Assembly: GCF_900128445.1 (NCBI RefSeq)
Contig: NZ_LT671417.1
Coordinates: 372,001 to 436,000 of the forward strand
DNA: 64,000 nt
From: Thermophilibacter provencensis
GTDB lineage: Bacteria; Actinomycetota; Coriobacteriia; Coriobacteriales; Atopobiaceae
Reading direction: 5' to 3'
Of this stretch, positions 9,247 through 17,939 are shown in pieces. The notes under the pieces were generated by a model. It was not told the origin of the DNA, did not search any database, and worked only from the letters and a program-made list of their open reading frames with translations. Position 1 is the stretch's first letter, and every line of letters begins with the position of its first letter. The translations under genes were made by a program, and so were the position numbers.

Positions 9247-12200
9247 TCAGGAGCGCCCGCGGCGGCGAGCAAGGGCGCGGTGCACCCACGCGATTACACC
9301 CACGCCCGCCACGGCGTCGGCAATCGCAAGGGCGGTCCCCACGTAGTTGAAGCCCTGCGTCTTGACCGGCCGCTCGATGCCCGGCTCGCCCACGCTCGCC
9401 GCGGCCTCGTTATAGGCCAGGTTGGTGGCTCGGGCGTTGAGCCACGTGTAGAGCACGTTTTTGGTGGCGCGCCGCAGGTTGGTGAGGTAGCTCACGGCGC
9501 GAGGCTCCTCGGGCGTGCCCTCCGCGGCCAGAAGCTCGTCCTGCGTGAAGCCGTATGCAAAGGCACCGTTGCGGAAGACGCCGTCCATGTAGAGGTCGCC
9601 GCCGGCACGCAGCATCTCGTCCGCGTTCATGTACGTCTGATGGTCGGCGTAGTCCGTGATGACGGCGCCCTCGAAGCCCCACTCGCCGCGCAGCACGCTC
9701 GTGAGGAGGGCGCGGCTGCCGCCCGCCCACGTGGCGCCGATGCGGTTGTACGAGGTCATGAGGCCCGTCGTCCCGCGCTCGACGGCACGCTGGAACGGCG
9801 CGAGGTAGATTTCGCGCAGTGCCTGCTCCGTGAGCCACGTATAGAGCGAGTCTCGGTAGGAGTCCTGGTTGTTGACGGCAAAGTGCTTGAGGAAGGCATA
9901 CGTGCCCGCATCGCGCGCACCCGCGACCACCTCGGCGGCCATGGTGCCGCACAGCAGCGGGTCCTCGGCGTAGTACTCATAGTTGCGGCCGCCCACGGGC
10001 GTGCGGTGAACGTTGGCGCATGGAGCGTACCAGCCGTCCACGCCGATCATCGCGCACTCCAGACCCACTTGCGCGCCGTACTCGCGCACAAGCCCGGCGT
10101 TCCACGTCTGCGCGAGCACCGTCGGGCCGGGGTAGCCCACGCCATAGCTCAGCTGGTTGAACGAGCCCACCTGCGCAGGGCCGTCCACCTCCTTGGTGCG
10201 CGGCTTGCCGATCCCGTCGATGCTCCCCGTCGCCAGGTACCCGTGGAGCACGAGCCGCTCCATGTCTGCCAATGAGACGTGGTCGAGCAGGAGCTCCCAG
10301 CGCGGGTCGTCATAGTCCAGGCCCAGCTCGCGCCCCATCTGCGTGAGCTCGCCGTCTTCCGTGAGCTGCCAGTAGTCGCCCGCGGCCGAGGCGAGCGGCT
10401 GGTCGAGCGGCGTGGCGAGCTCGCTTTCGTAGCGACGCGCGTCCGCCTCCACGCGGTCCTCGCCGTAGAGGTTGAGGGCCATGACGTTGTCCGTCATGGC
10501 GCGGTTCGCGCTCCCCTGGCGCGGAAACGTCCCCGCGAAGTCCGCGCGCGTGAGGTAGGTGATGCCGGCGTCGGAGTCCGAGCCGTCAATGGAGACGCCG
10601 TCCTCGGCGGACTCGCCGGTGAAGCGGTTGGTCACGGTGGCGCCCGTCTGGAGGTCGCGCTCGCAGAGCACGTCGGAGGGAAGGTAGTAGGTCGTCCGCG
10701 CGTAGTCGCAGTCCGCAAGCTCGTGCGCGTTGCGCTTGAGCTCGACCACATACTCCCCCTGCTCGAGCTCGTAGCCCGCGAAGCCGTTGCCGTTGGCGTC
10801 GTAGCAGTCGTAAGAGGCGACGTCGTCGAGGGCGAAGGAGAGCGTCACGTCCTGGCTCTCCCCCGGCTGCAAAAGGCGCGTCTTGACAAAGGCCACGAGC
10901 ACCGTCGAGGCCTTCTCGACGCCGCCGGGCTCGTACGGGGGCGTGCAGTAGAGCTGTACCACGTCGCGCCCGGCAACCTCCCCGGTGTTGGTGACGCGCA
11001 CGGTGACGGAGACGTTCGTCTCGCGGCCTACGCGCATGCCCTGGCCGGGCGTCCGCGCCGTGACCTGCCACGAGAAGGACGTGTAGCTGAGACCGTAGCC
11101 AAACGGGTACTGGACCACGGCATCGTAGCCCGTGCCGTGCTCGTTCTCCACGCCGTCCCAGAAGCCCTCGGCGTCAGCCGTCTCGTACCAGCGGTATCCC
11201 ACGTAGATGCCCTCGACGTAGTCCACGAAGCGCACGCCGTCGTAGGTCTCGGTCACGCCCACGTTGGCGTTGAGCGTGCCGTCGGCCGGGTAGAGCCCCG
11301 TGCCGTTGGTATATGTCCCCTCGCCCATGGCGCCCGAGTTGGCCCAGCTTGCGGCCGTCTCGAAGGCGTAGGCATAGGTGTCCACCGTGCGGCCGGAGGG
11401 ATTGACGTCACCCCAGAGGGCGCCGACCACGGCCCGCGCGCCCACCTCGCCCGTGGTTCCCACGATGAGGGCGGCGTCTATCCCCGGGATGGTCTCGAGC
11501 TCGCCGAGCTCCATCGTGTTGGTGGAGTTGATCAGCACAACCACGCGCTCATAGGTCGCGCCCACATAGCGCAGCAGGTCCTCCTCCTCGCGCGAGAGCT
11601 CGAGGTAGCCGCGCGTGACGTCGACGTCCACCTCGCCGTCGCGGCCGCTCACCTTATACTGAGCGCTCGGGCAGTCGATGGACTCCCCGGAGACGCGGCC
11701 GATAACCACGATCGCCGTGTCCGAGTACTTCTCCGCAGCGGTGAGAAGGTCCTCGGAGTAGCACGTCCTGTCTCGGACGCTCGGCTCGTAGAGGCGGCAG
11801 AACTCGGTGTCGTGACTGTTGAGGGCGCCCGCGGAGCGATAGGCGCGCTCGCCGTGGAAGCCGCGGTACATGTCTGTGAGCTGCGTGTTGTACGCAACGC
11901 CCCGCTCCTCGAGCGCGTCGAGAAGCCCCATCGTCTCACCGGCCACCTGGCCGGAGCCAGAACCGCTCGCCACCCACTGCGTGGACGCCCAGCCAAAGAC
12001 GTTGACCTGCGTCACGTCTGCGGGAAGGGGCAGCGCCCCATCCTCGTTGCGCAGCAAGACGATGCCCTCGGCCTCCACGCGCTCTGCGAGCGCGCGGCCC
12101 TTCTCCATCGTTGCATCGCGCTCCTCGGGCTCGACGTTCACAACGTCAGTGCCCAAGAAGGAGTCGACCGTGTCACCAAGAAGCGCCATGGCCACGTTGG

Positions 12201-12279
12201 CCGCCACGAGCGCGCCGACCGCCATCACGGCGCCCGCGCACGCGACCACCCTCACGACCCTGCGACCCCTCTTGCCCAC
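9247..12279 (-). CDS. Membrane-anchored glycoside hydrolase family 3 protein, second copy
   Basis: A 1,010-residue paralogue of the enzyme at 1216-4299, with the same plan: N-terminal membrane helix (about 8-33), GH3 C-type sandwich domain (AEGIVLLRNEDGALPLP), fibronectin III-like domain, GH3 catalytic domain (FLKHFAVNNQD; nucleophile Asp876 in AVITDYAD), and a C-terminal membrane helix ending in an Arg-rich tail. The GTG start has GAGGAGG 5 bases upstream. The two proteins differ clearly in sequence, so the duplication is not recent. Likely an extracellular, membrane-tethered beta-glycosidase; substrate unknown. Its stop codon lies in a palindromic repeat. Confidence 0.9.
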   Translation of the reverse strand: MGKRGRRVVRVVACAGAVMAVGALVAANVAMALLGDTVDSFLGTDVVNVEPEERDATMEKGRALAERVEAEGIVLLRNEDGALPLPADVTQVNVFGWASTQWVASGSGSGQVAGETMGLLDALEERGVAYNTQLTDMYRGFHGERAYRSAGALNSHDTEFCRLYEPSVRDRTCYSEDLLTAAEKYSDTAIVVIGRVSGESIDCPSAQYKVSGRDGEVDVDVTRGYLELSREEEDLLRYVGATYERVVVLINSTNTMELGELETIPGIDAALIVGTTGEVGARAVVGALWGDVNPSGRTVDTYAYAFETAASWANSGAMGEGTYTNGTGLYPADGTLNANVGVTETYDGVRFVDYVEGIYVGYRWYETADAEGFWDGVENEHGTGYDAVVQYPFGYGLSYTSFSWQVTARTPGQGMRVGRETNVSVTVRVTNTGEVAGRDVVQLYCTPPYEPGGVEKASTVLVAFVKTRLLQPGESQDVTLSFALDDVASYDCYDANGNGFAGYELEQGEYVVELKRNAHELADCDYARTTYYLPSDVLCERDLQTGATVTNRFTGESAEDGVSIDGSDSDAGITYLTRADFAGTFPRQGSANRAMTDNVMALNLYGEDRVEADARRYESELATPLDQPLASAAGDYWQLTEDGELTQMGRELGLDYDDPRWELLLDHVSLADMERLVLHGYLATGSIDGIGKPRTKEVDGPAQVGSFNQLSYGVGYPGPTVLAQTWNAGLVREYGAQVGLECAMIGVDGWYAPCANVHRTPVGGRNYEYYAEDPLLCGTMAAEVVAGARDAGTYAFLKHFAVNNQDSYRDSLYTWLTEQALREIYLAPFQRAVERGTTGLMTSYNRIGATWAGGSRALLTSVLRGEWGFEGAVITDYADHQTYMNADEMLRAGGDLYMDGVFRNGAFAYGFTQDELLAAEGTPEEPRAVSYLTNLRRATKNVLYTWLNARATNLAYNEAAASVGEPGIERPVKTQGFNYVGTALAIADAVAGVGVIAWVHRALARRRGRS

Positions 12280-12351
12280 GCGCCCTCCTCAGATCGACGA
12301 GCCTCGCGGCTCCCGTCCTATTCTAACGACCCTCCACGACACGGCATGGGC

Positions 12352-12469
12352 TACAATGACGGTTGGAAAATCCCCTAAGAGAAGGGTCCGCATGAAACCT
12401 CGACCTCACAGTCGATGACCTGCGGCGCGCTCCCGTGGCGCGTCGAGTGACGCAAGCGAAGGAGCGCAG
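12352..12469 (+). promoter_or_regulatory. Promoter -10 and ~105-nt leader before the Mg operon
   Basis: GGGCTACAATG contains an extended -10 hexamer TACAAT (12352-12357). Transcription from about 12364 would give a leader of about 105 bases with a potential GCGCGCTCCCGTGGCGCGTC stem before the AAGGAG of the first gene. I could not match it to the M-box or yybP-ykoY riboswitch, so regulation by the leader is only a possibility. Confidence 0.45.
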
Positions 12470-14326
12470 ATGATCTACCTGTCCCAGCTACTGGGCAACC
12501 CCGTTCTGGATGCCGACGGCGAGAAGATCGGCACGGTTTCCGACCTCGGCATCGCCACCGGCGAGGTTTTCCCCCGGGTCACGAGCCTTGCCTTCATGGG
12601 CCCCGGGCGCACGCCGATCATGATCTCCTGGCGCAAGTACGTCGAGCGCTATGACGAGAACGAGGTCAACCTCAAGGTCATAGCCACAGACCTGCGCTTC
12701 TCGTACCTCCAGCCGGACGAGGTCCTTCTCGCCCGCGATATCCTGAACAAGCAGATCGTGGACACGCACGGTATGCGCGTCGTCCGCGTGAACGACCTCA
12801 AGCTCTCGGACACGAGCTCCACCCAGCTGCGCCTGCTCGGCGCCGAGGTGGGCGCCCGCGGCCTCCTGCGCAGCCTCCACCCCGCGCTCGAAAGCGTGGC
12901 GCTGCGCCTGGCGCGGACCTTCGGCCACCCCATGCCCGAGAGAATCATCGCATGGAACTACATGGACCTCGTGGAGCGCGACCTCTCCAACGTCAAGCTC
13001 TCCGTGAGCCACAAGACGCTCGACGACATGCACCCCGCCGACATCGCCGATATCATCGAGCGGCTGGACCCGCGCCTGCGAGGCCAGGTCTTCGCGCAGC
13101 TTGACGATGAGCAGCGCGCCGACGCCATGGCAGAGTTCGACGACGATGCCATGGCCGCCGAGCTCATGGGCTCGCTCAACGAGACCGACGCCTCGCGCAT
13201 GCTGGCCGAGATGGACCCGGACGACGCCGCCGAGCTTGTCTCCGAGCTCGACTACGACAAGGCCGAGAAGCTTCTGCGCCTCATGGGCGTGCAGGAGCAG
13301 CGCGCCATCCGCCAGCTGCTGGGATACCGCGAGAACACGGCAGGCCGCATCATGACCTCCGAGGTCGCCACTGTGCCCGACGACGCCACCGTGGCCGATG
13401 CCGTGGAGATGCTGCGCGGGCTGGACGAGGACTTCGAGTCCGTGCGCTACGTCTACCTCACCGACGAGGACGGCAAGCTCGCCGGCGTGGTGACGCTTCC
13501 CGGCCTCATCGTGGCCGACCCCGAGACGAGACTCTCCGAGCTCGCGACCGAGGACCTCATCACGGCGAGCCCCGAGGACGACCAGGAGGACGTCGCCGAG
13601 GACATCGCCAAGTACAACCTGCTGGCCATGCCCGTCGTGAACGATGAGGGGCGCCTTCTGGGTATCGTCACCGTGGATGACGCGCTCGACGTCCTGGAGG
13701 AGGAGCACGCCGAGGACCTGCGCGTTGCCGGCGGCTCCGCGGATGGCGAGGACTCCGGGCACGCGAGCACGCTCATCTGGCTCGTGCGCCGCAACGTGTG
13801 GGTGGTCCTGTGGGCCGTCGGCGTCGTGGCGCTCGCCCTCGTCGCGGGGACGCGGCTCGGCCTTGGCGAGACGCTTGCCGCCACCATCCCGCTCGCCGTC
13901 GCGCTCGTGCTCGCGGACGACTCCGTGAGCTACGTCACCAACTTTTTCCTCGAGAACGACCCCGATGACGAGGACGCGCCCTCCGCGCTCGGCTTTGCGT
14001 TCAAGGGATTGGGCCTCGGCGTCGCGCTCGGCGCGCTCGTGGTGCTCATCGTCCTCGGGCTCGAGAGCGTCATCGCCTCCCCCGCCGTGCCCTCCTCGGT
14101 CGAGCGGCTCGGCCCCGCGCTCTCCGCGGGGGGCGTGGCCGCGGCCGTCTCCACGTTCGTCTCGTTTGCGACCACGCCCATCTACCTGGCCGTCCTTCGC
14201 CGACGTGACGAGGCCAACAAGGAGACCTCCGGCTTTACGCTCTCCCTCGTCTCCATGCTGGTTGCCGTGGTGGTGTTCCTAGCCGCCGTGCTGGCGCTCG
14301 CCGGACCCCTGGGGCTGGTGCGATGA
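12470..14326 (+). CDS. PRC-barrel / MgtE_N / CBS-pair membrane protein
   Basis: A 618-residue protein: PRC-barrel-like N-terminus (about 1-75), a linker of PRC-like sequence, MgtE intracellular N domain (about 180-285; LDDMHPADIADIIERLDP), a CBS pair (about 290-425) and four to five membrane helices (435-618). In true MgtE channels the N and CBS domains sense cytosolic magnesium. The membrane part lacks the MgtE signature with GGN and GxQ; at that position it reads PLAVALVLADDSVSYVTN. It is therefore probably not a standard channel and may be a regulatory partner or divergent transporter. AAGGAG lies 5 bases before the ATG. It overlaps the start of the NRAMP-like gene (ATGA), so the two are translationally coupled. 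Confidence 0.85.
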   Translation: MIYLSQLLGNPVLDADGEKIGTVSDLGIATGEVFPRVTSLAFMGPGRTPIMISWRKYVERYDENEVNLKVIATDLRFSYLQPDEVLLARDILNKQIVDTHGMRVVRVNDLKLSDTSSTQLRLLGAEVGARGLLRSLHPALESVALRLARTFGHPMPERIIAWNYMDLVERDLSNVKLSVSHKTLDDMHPADIADIIERLDPRLRGQVFAQLDDEQRADAMAEFDDDAMAAELMGSLNETDASRMLAEMDPDDAAELVSELDYDKAEKLLRLMGVQEQRAIRQLLGYRENTAGRIMTSEVATVPDDATVADAVEMLRGLDEDFESVRYVYLTDEDGKLAGVVTLPGLIVADPETRLSELATEDLITASPEDDQEDVAEDIAKYNLLAMPVVNDEGRLLGIVTVDDALDVLEEEHAEDLRVAGGSADGEDSGHASTLIWLVRRNVWVVLWAVGVVALALVAGTRLGLGETLAATIPLAVALVLADDSVSYVTNFFLENDPDDEDAPSALGFAFKGLGLGVALGALVVLIVLGLESVIASPAVPSSVERLGPALSAGGVAAAVSTFVSFATTPIYLAVLRRRDEANKETSGFTLSLVSMLVAVVVFLAAVLALAGPLGLVR

Positions 14327-15570
14327 TGAAAGGAGACGCCCCCTCTTCGCCGCTCGAGCCGCGACGCATCCTGGCGGCGATGGGCCCCGGCATGGTGGCC
14401 GCCCTCGCCGGCGCGGACGCGGGCGGCGTTGCCACGTACTCCAACGCCGGCGCGCTCTTCGGCTTCAACCAGCTCTGGACTGTTCCGGTGATGTGCTTTC
14501 TGCTCATCGTGGCGCAGGAGACGTCCGCGCGCATGGGCTGCGTCACGGGCAAGGGCTTCGCCTCGCTCATCCGCGAGCAGTTCGGCGTGCGCCTCTCCGT
14601 CGTGGCCATGCTCGCCCTCCTCATCTCAAACACCACCGTCACGCTCTCCGAGTTCGCGGGCATCGCTTCGGCGCTCGCCCTCTTCGGCGTTCCCCCGATC
14701 GTATCCGTGCCGGTGGCGGCGCTTGCCATCTGGCTGCTCACGATGAGCGGCTCGTATCGGCGCATCGAGAAGGTCCTCCTCGCCATCGCGTGCGTTTTCG
14801 TGACCTACGTCATCGCCGGCGTTATGGTGGGGCCCGACTGGGGCGACGCCCTGCTCCACACCGTGGTCCCACACGTCACGGCCTCCCCGCAGTACCTCTC
14901 GCTGCTGGTCGCGAACGTCGGCACCACCATCGCGCCCTGGATGCTCTTCCTCGCCCAGAGCAACGTGGTCGAGAAGAATGCGCGGGCGGCCGACCTGCCC
15001 TACCAGCGCATCGACACCGTGACGGGGGCCGTGGTGGCAAGCGCCATCTCGTGGTTCATCATCCTTACGACGGGGGCCGTGCTGAACCCGGCCGGAGTCG
15101 TCGTGAACGGCGCGGAGGACGCCGCGTCGGCGCTCGCGCCGCTCGTCGGCAGCTACGCGGAGGCGCTCTTCGGCGCGGGTCTTGCCGGCGCCTCGCTCCT
15201 CGCGGCCTGCGTCCTGCCCGGCATCACCTCAAGCGCCATCTGCGAGGCCTTCGGCTGGGAACGCGGCGCGGACCGCAGCTGGTCGGAGGCGCCCGCCTAC
15301 CGGGGAATCATCACGGCGGTCATCGCCATCTCCGCCGTCGTGGTCGTGCTGCCCGACGTCAACCTCTTCGGAATCATGATGGTGGCGCAGGTCATAAACG
15401 GCGTCCTGCTACCCGTCCTCCTCGTCTTCATGGTGCTCATCGCGAGCGACCGCCACGTGATGGGCCGATATGCGAACGGCCGCGTCTGGAACGCGCTCAC
15501 GTGGTTCACCATCGTCGCCGTGGCCATCCTCACCGTCGTGATGTTCGCGATGCAGGCCATGGGGATGTGA
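14323..15570 (+). CDS. NRAMP/SLC11 family transporter, NRMT-like (probable Mg2+)
   Basis: A 415-residue, about 11-helix SLC11-fold protein. Canonical manganese/iron transporters carry DPGN in helix 1 and MPH in helix 6. Here helix 1 has Asp32-Ala-Gly-Gly35 and helix 6 has TTIAPW (201-206), so the helix 1 Asn, the metal-ligating Met and the His are all missing. These replacements match the NRAMP-related magnesium transporters (NRMT) characterised from Eggerthella lenta, a relative. Coupling to an upstream gene with MgtE-type magnesium-sensor domains supports magnesium as substrate. Automated annotation would probably call it a divalent metal or manganese transporter. Confidence 0.88.
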   Translation: MMKGDAPSSPLEPRRILAAMGPGMVAALAGADAGGVATYSNAGALFGFNQLWTVPVMCFLLIVAQETSARMGCVTGKGFASLIREQFGVRLSVVAMLALLISNTTVTLSEFAGIASALALFGVPPIVSVPVAALAIWLLTMSGSYRRIEKVLLAIACVFVTYVIAGVMVGPDWGDALLHTVVPHVTASPQYLSLLVANVGTTIAPWMLFLAQSNVVEKNARAADLPYQRIDTVTGAVVASAISWFIILTTGAVLNPAGVVVNGAEDAASALAPLVGSYAEALFGAGLAGASLLAACVLPGITSSAICEAFGWERGADRSWSEAPAYRGIITAVIAISAVVVVLPDVNLFGIMMVAQVINGVLLPVLLVFMVLIASDRHVMGRYANGRVWNALTWFTIVAVAILTVVMFAMQAMGM

Positions 15571-15596
15571 CGGCAGGCGCGCGGCCCATCCTCCAG

Positions 15597-15816
15597 TGCA
15601 ATCAGGCGGATAGTGTGAAAAAACCGGGCGCCAGCATGCAGTCAGGGGGATAGTGCGAAGCACTTTTCGCGCCCCGGGCCTCCTTCGCCCCTCCTTCGCT
15701 TAACGCCAACTGGGGTTTTGCCAGGCGGCTACCCAAGGACCCCTCGGAAACCCTTCACACTATCCCGCCGATTGCATGCCGGCGCCCGGTTTTTTCACAC
15801 TATCCGCCTGATTGCA
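15597..15816. repeat. 220-bp inverted-repeat element, GGATAGTGTGAA family
   Basis: Arms of about 64 bp (15597-15660 and 15752-15816) are inverted copies with few mismatches. Each arm holds two copies of a module of the form TGCAATCAGGCGGATAGTGT, followed by GAA. A second copy of the element is at 31210-31441. No convincing gene lies inside. It fills the gap between the NRAMP-like gene and the FUSC gene. Confidence 0.88.
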
Positions 15817-15914
15817 GGCCACGCGCCGCAGAGCACCCCTGCCCCGCTCGGTATCTTGCGCAACCCGACGTCGCCTTTGCGGTATGGTCGAAGTGAGGCG
15901 AGGGAGGGGCGAGG

Positions 15915-17939
15915 ATGCGTTCGGAGAGCGTGCGCGCATGGGCTGAGGACTGGCGGGGTCGCTTTGTCGACACGCTGCCCACCATTCTCTTCTTCATCGC
16001 GCTCTTCTGGATCGTGCACCTTGCGTTTGGGTCCAACTACCTTCTCGCGGTTTCCCCGTACACCTCGCTCTTCCAGGCGCGACTGCGAAAGTACAACCCG
16101 CCGGGACAGTATGCCCGGTTCGTGCTGGTGAGTGCGCTCGCGCTCGTTGCAGCGCGCGTGGCCGTCATCGGCGTCGTGCCGTGCATCGCCGTGAACCTTC
16201 TCATGCCGTTCCTGCTCGTCTTCATGCGCTCGTCGCAGCTCAACCCAAGGCGGTACTTCCCCTACACGATGCTCTTCTGCTTCCTCGAGCTCCGGCCCGA
16301 GGCCCTCGTGGACACGTTCGCGACGCAGGCCCTCGTGCTCGCCACCTGCTGCGTCACCCTCATCGTCACGCTCGCCGTGGCAGGACGCCTCCAGCATCAT
16401 GCGCAACGAGCCCGCACGCGCCTGCATGAGCTCGTCGGCCGACTCGCCGACGATCTGACCCGGGCATCCAAGGGCGGCGTCGGTCCCAACCTCAGCTCGG
16501 AGCTCCTCCGGCTCCGACGTGACTTCGCCCGCATGGCCTACACCGCCCGGGAGGACTCCTCGGCACCCGTCCGCGTGCAGAACCTCCTCGACATGTTTGC
16601 GACGCTCGCGCAGCGGACCGCCTACCTCGCCGGAAACTTCGACTGGGATGCGAGCCACCAGGAGGATCACGCACGAGCCCTCAGCGAGCTCGGGCGGCTT
16701 ACGCACGACCTCAACGCCGCGCTCGAGGGCGACGTCTCAGCGCGCTGCCACAGGCTCATCCCCCGCGCGCAGGAGCTGCTCGACGGGACGAGCATCGCCG
16801 AGGACCGCTTCCGCATCTTCTATCAGAGCTACCTCAACCTGGTGCTGCTCATCTTGCGCACCGCGCCCGACCCGCACCAGCGCCCCTGGCGCCTCTCCGC
16901 CTCCGACCTCGCGCGCGTGACGAGCTTCCGCAAGCGCCTCAGCCTCGAATCCTTTGAGATGCGCTTCTCCATTCGCTGCGGCGCCGTCCTCGCCGTGAGC
17001 TGCGCCTCAAACCTGCTGTTCCCCGTTGATCACCTCTACTGGTTCGCCCTCCACGCCTTCCTGCTGCTGCAGCCCTTCCCGCACGAGTCGCTGCACCGCA
17101 TGCGCACCCGCATGGTGGGGACCGTAATCGGATGCCTCTTCGTGCACGGCCTGGCGCTGCTCAACCTCGGCTGGGTCGAGGTCACCATCCTCGGGATGTT
17201 CCTCGTGGGGCCGATGTATGCCACCAAGCCCGGCTCCGTTCCGTCAGCGTTCTTTGCAACCGCCTACGCCGTCTCCATGGCGTCGGTCTCCATCGACGAC
17301 CGCTACGCCACCACCATGCGCATCGCGAGCCTCCTGCTCGCCATCGCCACCGTCGCGATCGTCAACCGCTTGGTGTGTCCCACCTCGGAGCGTCGCCTCT
17401 TCGTAGCCAACTTCCACCAGATGATCGGCATGGTCGGGCGCTACTGGCGCCTCATCCGCCTCACTCTCACGCACCGCGTGGACACCGTCGTCTCGTCCGA
17501 GACCCTGCTTCACTTCCAGATGCTTCACACCCAGGCGACGGAGTTCGTCGAGTCCCTCGACGAGGCGGGCGAGAAGGACCGCGAGATCGCCGAGCTGGCG
17601 CGCTATCGAGACGCGGCGGATCGGGCGCTCTTCTGCCTCTGGGAGATCATGTGCGAGCTCGAGCAGCTTGAGCTGCTGGTGCGTCTGCGCGAGGTGGGAG
17701 ACGACGAGCAGCCGCTCTTCGAGCGGATCATCGACCTCACCGAGGCGAACTGCGACCCACGGCGCTTTGGCACGGGCGTTGACGCGGCGGAGGAGATGCT
17801 CTTCGAGCTTGAGGAGCCGGACCTTCGCTACGTTCTCGAGCAGTACGTCGACCGCGCGGGGGAGCTGCGCCTCGCCATCGACGACGCCCGAGGGGCCCTC
17901 GTGCAGCGCCCCACCTACGTCGAGGAAATTCGTCCGTAG
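15915..17939 (+). CDS. FUSC-family membrane transporter
   Basis: A 674-residue protein with two blocks of membrane helices (about 20-160 and 355-500), each followed by a long soluble region. This is the duplicated layout of FUSC/YccS/aromatic acid exporter proteins, including the FUSC-like segment FSIRCGAVLAVSCASNLLFP. Members export aromatic acids or related compounds; the substrate here is unknown. A purine-rich GGAGGGGCGAGG precedes the ATG. The stop codon is followed after 3 bases by the perfect 68-bp palindrome, and the next gene is convergent. Confidence 0.85.
   Translation: MRSESVRAWAEDWRGRFVDTLPTILFFIALFWIVHLAFGSNYLLAVSPYTSLFQARLRKYNPPGQYARFVLVSALALVAARVAVIGVVPCIAVNLLMPFLLVFMRSSQLNPRRYFPYTMLFCFLELRPEALVDTFATQALVLATCCVTLIVTLAVAGRLQHHAQRARTRLHELVGRLADDLTRASKGGVGPNLSSELLRLRRDFARMAYTAREDSSAPVRVQNLLDMFATLAQRTAYLAGNFDWDASHQEDHARALSELGRLTHDLNAALEGDVSARCHRLIPRAQELLDGTSIAEDRFRIFYQSYLNLVLLILRTAPDPHQRPWRLSASDLARVTSFRKRLSLESFEMRFSIRCGAVLAVSCASNLLFPVDHLYWFALHAFLLLQPFPHESLHRMRTRMVGTVIGCLFVHGLALLNLGWVEVTILGMFLVGPMYATKPGSVPSAFFATAYAVSMASVSIDDRYATTMRIASLLLAIATVAIVNRLVCPTSERRLFVANFHQMIGMVGRYWRLIRLTLTHRVDTVVSSETLLHFQMLHTQATEFVESLDEAGEKDREIAELARYRDAADRALFCLWEIMCELEQLELLVRLREVGDDEQPLFERIIDLTEANCDPRRFGTGVDAAEEMLFELEEPDLRYVLEQYVDRAGELRLAIDDARGALVQRPTYVEEIRP

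Follow-up and report, generated by a model that had tools for sequence, protein, structure and literature searches.

The closest described relatives of the system considered here are the NRMTs, which are magnesium transporters related to the NRAMP family, and the magnesium channel MgtE. Shin et al. reported in 2014 that an MgtE-like gene lies adjacent to most NrmT genes, described control by the M-box, a magnesium riboswitch, and proposed a feedback on transport (PMC4072509). As far as the main text of that paper goes, the gene (in the Ca_c0685 operon and as Acp2976/2977) is described as a homologue of the MgtE cytoplasmic domain only, without a pore-less membrane domain or a fusion to MgtA; the term PRC is also absent from that main text. 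EleNRMT (7qia), in the parts of its report considered here, is characterised as a lone transporter, and neither ‘operon’ nor ‘CBS’ appears as a word in that paper (PMC8806188). Here, we describe two overlapping genes of Thermophilibacter provencensis, one encoding an NRMT and the other an MgtE-like protein (the partner). They lie in a window of 64,000 nucleotides (nt), positions 372,001–436,000 of the forward strand of NZ_LT671417.1, and coordinates below are those of the window, all features being on its plus strand.

We judge it likely, with a probability of roughly two in three, that the pair comprises an NRMT magnesium importer and a dedicated cytoplasmic magnesium sensor, the latter being a relative of MgtE that would be unable to conduct as MgtE does. 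Like the genes of Shin et al., which are often under an M-box, the partner is adjacent to an NrmT and homologous to the cytoplasmic domain of MgtE. Both the pairing and the idea of feedback were thus published in 2014 (PMC4072509), and the core of the system is known. New, as far as our searches show, are the pore-less MgtE membrane domain, the conserved PRC part and the MgtA fusion; nothing was found in print on any of the three, a weak negative that covers open-licence papers only. The partner would explain the ‘MgtE fragment’ that was noted, with no known role, in 2014 (PMC4072509, main text). In the portions of the literature covered, NRMTs were characterised alone, without a feedback mechanism, and the partner is a concrete candidate for that feedback.

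The transporter and its overlapping partner gene

The partner gene (12470..14326) is an open reading frame of 618 codons with Pfam PRC, MgtE_N, and CBS domains, and the NRMT gene (14323..15570) is one of 415 codons with a strong NRAMP match (PF01566, E 1.6e-86). The two share an ATGA overlap (14323..14326). An initial annotation, made from the sequence alone, had described these overlapping frames, and had pointed to DAGG and APW in the NRAMP protein in place of the canonical motifs. Alignment to EleNRMT bears out both observations, placing D32-A-G-G35 in helix 1 (14416..14427) and T201-T-I-A204-P-W206 in helix 6 (14923..14940).

EleNRMT is by far the best solved relative of the window protein (E 7.5e-145, 486 bits; the next reaches 95.5 bits). 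In the alignment, its site residues D55, G58, E133, T224, A227, and Q379 correspond to D32, G35, E110, T201, A204, and Q356, and all are kept. The replacement of DxxN and A/CxxM by DxxG and TxxA/T is given, in the sections of the EleNRMT report considered, as the binding-site signature of NRMTs (PMC8806188), and the window protein carries it as DAGG and TTIA. In addition, W206 and A211, which are unable to take protons, stand where other NRAMPs have their two helix-6 histidines. On these grounds, 14323–15570 encodes an NRMT-type transporter, for which Mg2+ transport is predicted.

The DxxG half of the signature extends to relatives: of 147 distinct NRAMPs linked to a partner, 144 have it. Second Nramps of the same class have other motifs: among 18 that were fetched, four have DPGN/MPH, ten GPGT/TTIVPY, and three DPSG/TTITPY, while one is incomplete. 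By coordinates, all 18 are located away from any partner, and three of their genomes have none. The ten GPGT/TTIVPY proteins have lost the metal-binding Asp of helix 1, again with no partner nearby. The idea that the NRMT is the sole importer of T. provencensis was rejected, as its genome also has matches to CorA (two) and MgtA (one); there are none to MgtE.

Sensor part and membrane domain of the partner

The partner begins with a PRC barrel (residues 1–61; 12470..12652; PF05239, E 2.1e-10). This is followed by a highly conserved region that includes a second PRC-like beta barrel and helices (residues ~76–168; 12695..12973), with many invariant columns across 28 relatives. The second barrel has no separate Pfam match in the window protein and is a reading of the strands in the model. 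Next come the MgtE_N sensor domain (residues 187–289; 13028..13336; PF03448, E 5.1e-24) and a CBS pair (residues ~290–410; 13337..13699; PF00571, E 2.3e-22, with two stretches over the Pfam cut-offs). Where MgtE has its plug helix, the partner also has a helix (residues 402–419; 13673..13726). The AlphaFold model, built with 89 aligned sequences, has a mean predicted local distance difference test (pLDDT) score of 92 and a predicted template modelling (pTM) score of 0.65. Over 406 residues (model residues 182–612), it superposes on full-length MgtE 5x9h with Z 28.3 and a root-mean-square deviation of 4.3.

Residue equivalences between the partner and MgtE, taken from one sequence alignment, suggest that much of the magnesium-sensing apparatus has been retained. 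MgtE D91, D95, and D247 correspond to D251, E255, and D404, and the plug-helix residues E255, E258, and D259 to E412, E415, and D416. At the Mg4 ligands D91 and D247, all 107 modules compared have Asp. An acidic residue occupies the D95 column in 104 and the D250 column in 106 of them, while Glu at E258 (81/107) and Asp at D259 (78/107) are less general, the remainder being mostly gaps. The roles of these sites in MgtE are taken from the relevant parts of two earlier reports (PMC5882242, PMC5529423).

The initial annotation had also described the upstream protein as having MgtE_N, CBS, and PRC domains on a membrane part without the MgtE pore signature. The domains and the missing pore residues stand; the description of the membrane part needs refinement, since it is still a homologous MgtE domain (residues 431–611; 13760..14302). 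A profile comparison with hhalign against the MgtE transmembrane (TM) profile gave 98.9% (E 2e-17, 176 columns), as opposed to 0.1% for the NRMT used as a membrane-protein control. Modelled alone (residues 431–618; pLDDT 94.8, pTM 0.89), this part finds MgtE structures at ranks 1–5 in VIA (Z 11.4–12.4, 164–166 residues), with 4u9l at Z 12.4 over 164 residues; 4u9n we take to be an MgtE structure. By itself, the fold match would be weak, because designed helical proteins come next at Z 11.0 and Foldseek E values are no better than 0.04–0.07, and the profile comparison is the stronger support for homology.

No PF01769 match is listed for the window protein, and it scores below the NCBIfam MgtE cut-off (TIGR00400; 209.7 against 232.75 bits). 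Relatives do match PF01769: two reach ~61 bits without a pore motif, and two others 28.4 and 26.2 bits (cut-off 27.6). In a survey of the class, described below, six NRMT partners match at 26.7–33.1 bits, five of them above the cut-off. That the membrane domain is unrelated to MgtE was accordingly rejected, given these relatives and the profile comparison.

The pore residues have been replaced. Seventy domains, chosen so that their N-terminal parts share <85% identity, were aligned jointly with eight MgtEs; two copies cut by contigs and the four forms of family f6 were left out. This alignment places A482-D483-D484 of the TM2 pore-loop site (residues 474–488; 13889..13933) where MgtE has GGN, and Met596 (14255..14257) at the TM5 pore Asp, D432. 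An intact MgtE pore motif in the upstream protein, which would have contradicted the initial annotation, is therefore absent. The TM5 Asp is found in 8/8 MgtEs and 0/70 partner relatives. The two pore-loop glycines are kept in 4/70 and 1/70, with E or D at the second in 43/70. The structural Pro (66/70), Arg (48/70), and Ser (46/70) are better retained, although no residue is invariant across the 70 domains. The MgtE pore motifs PX6GN and P(D/A)X4PX6D, as given in the relevant part of PMC9276622, were searched for in 111 distinct membrane-domain-bearing partners of NRMT and occur in two (position not checked) and none, respectively, as opposed to 6/8 and 2/8 MgtEs, counts made without two rows, one a truncated copy of the window and the other a locus with no MgtE. 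Because P(D/A)X4PX6D is found in just two of eight MgtEs and is too strict, the Asp column of the alignment serves as the better test. As judged from the alignments, the membrane part is thus a homologous MgtE domain with its pore residues replaced, and not merely one without the signature.

In sum of its parts, the window partner shares MgtE_N, the CBS pair, a plug-like helix, and the membrane fold with the MgtE channel (2zy9, 5x9h, TIGR00400). It differs in its added PRC part, the loss of pore residues, its score below TIGR00400, and its being encoded with an NRMT. Partners of the Eggerthellaceae type have no membrane domain, and neither has the partner at an Eggerthella sp. locus. In a quick tree, the Eggerthellaceae-type partners make up a single clade nested within those that bear the domain, and what they retain is a tail of 44–52 residues in which one hydrophobic stretch can be discerned by eye. 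The MgtA fusions described below and several NRMT partners of greater distance lack the domain as well. The domain is thus dispensable in some lineages, whereas the cytoplasmic part stays.

Linkage to NRMT, M-boxes and MgtA

Whether the two genes are adjacent across Coriobacteriia was surveyed in 149 genomes, drawn evenly at a completeness of at least 80; counts exclude the weakest matches and include some genes cut by contig ends. Among the matches listed, the partner occurs in 125 genomes, NRMT in 121, and both in 120. In all 120, the genes share a strand and their match ends are no more than 607 nt apart (median 87), an adjacency that rests on coordinates, small intervening genes not being checked for. 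The partner comes first in 119 and NRMT in one. Random separation, which would have spoken against a functional pair, was not seen, and the linkage is far beyond chance. The sole NRMT without a partner is a partial match. The five partner-only genomes comprise one in which the partner lies beside mgtA and four of family f6. Among 80 named loci, which overlap the survey, 74 modules are NRMT-adjacent, three are MgtA fusions, one is MgtA-adjacent, and two are truncated where their contigs end.

Strong MgtE matches occur in 3/121 genomes with NRMT and 15/28 without, a distribution that fits replacement of MgtE where NRMT is present, the genomes not being independent. In 15 of the 121, no CorA, MgtA (E <= 1e-150), or strong MgtE is listed, CorC/CNNM not having been searched and some genomes being incomplete.

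M-box aptamers are found upstream of the pair in relatives. They occur in eight of 13 scanned loci, that is, in 8/11 of the named NRMT-linked loci, where they score 110–136 bits (cut-off 44) and end ~200–330 nt before the partner start; two MgtA-linked loci scanned had none. Of 20 further loci, five have an M-box, namely 4/6 with NRMT-adjacent modules and one whose module has no adjoining NRMT.

The pair is also carried on plasmids of Alicyclobacillus, Serratia, Leifsonia, and Arthrobacter, where the transporter has DAGG or DAGA with TT(I/V)APW. At locus L248 (CP068396.1:282273-290478), NRMT and module lie on a conjugative IncHI2A plasmid, between two ISEc33 transposase genes.

The module is not tied to NRMT, however. 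In three records of metagenome-assembled genomes (MAGs), PRC, MgtE_N, and CBS domains are joined to a P-type ATPase in one open reading frame. The fusion of Candidatus Solincola (L122, the same as L142) scores 1077 bits with TIGR01524. The other two, assigned by a custom two-sequence profile, are from Candidatus Geothermincola (L143, module 91% identical) and another Actinomycetota MAG (L144, module 64%), in which the frame is cut by a contig end. The fusion was detected in 2/18 genomes of the first fusion genome's order, the second probably being the genome of L143. A further locus (L210, the same as L068) has a free module without a membrane part directly downstream of mgtA. No NRMT match was found in the genomes of L143, L144, and L210; the L122 genome carries one, on a different contig. 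MgtA (TIGR01524) is thus a magnesium importer with the same module in one frame, yet it belongs to an unrelated transporter family. We know of no such sensor domain in the usual MgtA.

When 44 selected modules were placed in a careful tree, linkage to MgtA required at least two changes, and the modules so linked fell inside a clade (support 100/99) in which 26 of 32 rows are NRMT-linked. A quick tree of 107 modules agrees with this nesting. The sensing module is separable from NRMT, relatives of it having moved to MgtA. The presence of the sensing half on an unrelated pump suggests a plug-in magnesium sensor common to unrelated transporters, and the fusion makes the sensor hypothesis testable within one polypeptide.

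Proposed feedback on transport and its alternatives

The mechanism we propose is a variation on MgtE gating. High cytoplasmic Mg2+ would close the MgtE_N–CBS dimer of the partner, as in the gating model of MgtE (PMC8104411, in the part considered). The closed partner would then restrain NRMT instead of plugging a pore of its own, and would let go when Mg2+ falls. The partner may be kept in position by its PRC part, together with the dead membrane domain in lineages that have one, as an anchor or docking piece. For the PRC part, six loci (families f34, f40, f50, and f85) in which a separate tandem-PRC gene lies next to NRMT point to such a role.

The initial annotation had proposed that the pair serves magnesium uptake with the degenerate MgtE as sensor or gate. 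A magnesium role is well supported by the NRMT signature, near-total co-occurrence, and the M-boxes in relatives. A role as sensor or gate is likewise supported, because the magnesium-sensing residues are kept, the pore is lost, and the module is fused in frame to MgtA; Mg2+ binding by the partner, its contact with NRMT, and the inhibitory sign of its effect on transport are what we infer. The suggestion of one uptake unit fares less well if taken to mean a required subunit, which is unlikely. In the portions of the two reports considered, NrmT transporters such as those of Clostridium work without a partner (PMC4072509), EleNRMT is active in proteoliposomes without one (PMC8806188), and co-expression of the partner of Acidobacterium capsulatum gave no further rescue (PMC4072509). 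A feedback subunit is more likely than a required one.

These functional results also count against the sensor reading itself, as do several others. The Mg5 ligand column D226 is divided between Asp (52/107) and Asn (47/107), with Asn in the window protein. Residues that bind ATP in MgtE are less kept too (R187 in 79/107, D188 in 47/107), being P and G in the window protein, and E255, E258, and D259 are often changed in the ten Eggerthellaceae-type rows. No M-box or other magnesium riboswitch was detected at E <= 1 in window positions 11800–16200. Lastly, in four of four tested genomes of families f34, f50, and f85, NRMT is on another contig than the module, and f6 genomes keep the module although NRMT was not found there.

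The most durable alternative is that the partner is a chaperone-like subunit for the folding, insertion, or stability of NRMT, its magnesium-sensing residues being held by structure. The strong conservation of the PRC part, the tandem-PRC genes that stand alone beside NRMT, and a membrane domain that diverges freely and is absent from Eggerthellaceae-type partners would all suit such a role. We nevertheless regard it as unlikely, because Clostridium NRMTs and EleNRMT are reported, in the parts considered, to work without a partner (PMC4072509, PMC8806188), the Mg4 pair is invariant in the face of a variable ATP site, and an unrelated pump carries the module as a fusion.

Alternatively, the pair could handle manganese in vivo, with a sensor that answers Mn2+ or adenine nucleotides and not Mg2+. 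The A. capsulatum NRMT behaved as a manganese transporter, rescuing a manganese-import mutant, and a magnesium mutant only with low millimolar magnesium (PMC4072509, main text), which weighs against the magnesium reading; EleNRMT carries Mn2+ too, in vitro (PMC8806188, in the part considered). The retention of all checked EleNRMT magnesium-site residues, the M-boxes upstream in relatives, and the fusion to a magnesium-type P-ATPase make this quite improbable. That the partner is a functional channel for Mg2+ or another ion with an altered pore, parallel to NRMT, is very improbable: the MgtE fold is kept and an acidic residue is common at the second loop glycine, but the TM5 Asp and the pore motifs are gone or nearly so, no residue of the membrane domain is invariant, and one clade lacks the domain altogether.

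We thus favour a magnesium sensor that feeds back on NRMT. A broader formulation would be a transporter-independent feedback subunit, in which the PRC/MgtE_N/CBS module serves at least three unrelated importer folds (pore-less MgtE, NRMT, and MgtA), docks through PRC, and allows a dead channel to regulate a live carrier; for this, we see the chances as evenly balanced. Should the sensor reading hold, the partner would clearly exemplify an ion channel that has become a regulatory subunit.

Outside the class, the partner is not always beside NRMT, as ten loci have no NRMT in the fetched stretch. Eight of these, full-length modules of families f34, f50, and f64, have recurring neighbours that read as MerR-like, Mut7-C-like, and bifunctional-nuclease-like. 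The four f6 modules, in genomes with no NRMT match, have a different C-terminus (complete and longer in three), and their neighbours include genes read as phosphoribosylamine-glycine ligase-like and 5-formyltetrahydrofolate cyclo-ligase-like. Distant modules without NRMT are found in six loci of phylum genomes and on a Tsukamurella plasmid. In two of these (L250:3483-5296, on the plasmid, and L131:2369-4356), the PRC/MgtE_N/CBS genes overlap or abut a gene for a DUF1003 membrane protein, possibly a further membrane partner of the module.

Two observations concern the region downstream of NRMT. In one relative, a cyclic di-GMP-II riboswitch lies shortly downstream of the NRMT gene (L117:5809-5874). 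In the window, a 64-nt inverted repeat (92%; 15597–15660 and 15753–15816) lies just 3' of the gene, and the same stretch has 38 matches on both strands of the T. provencensis genome, which looks like a dispersed family of hairpin-like repeats.

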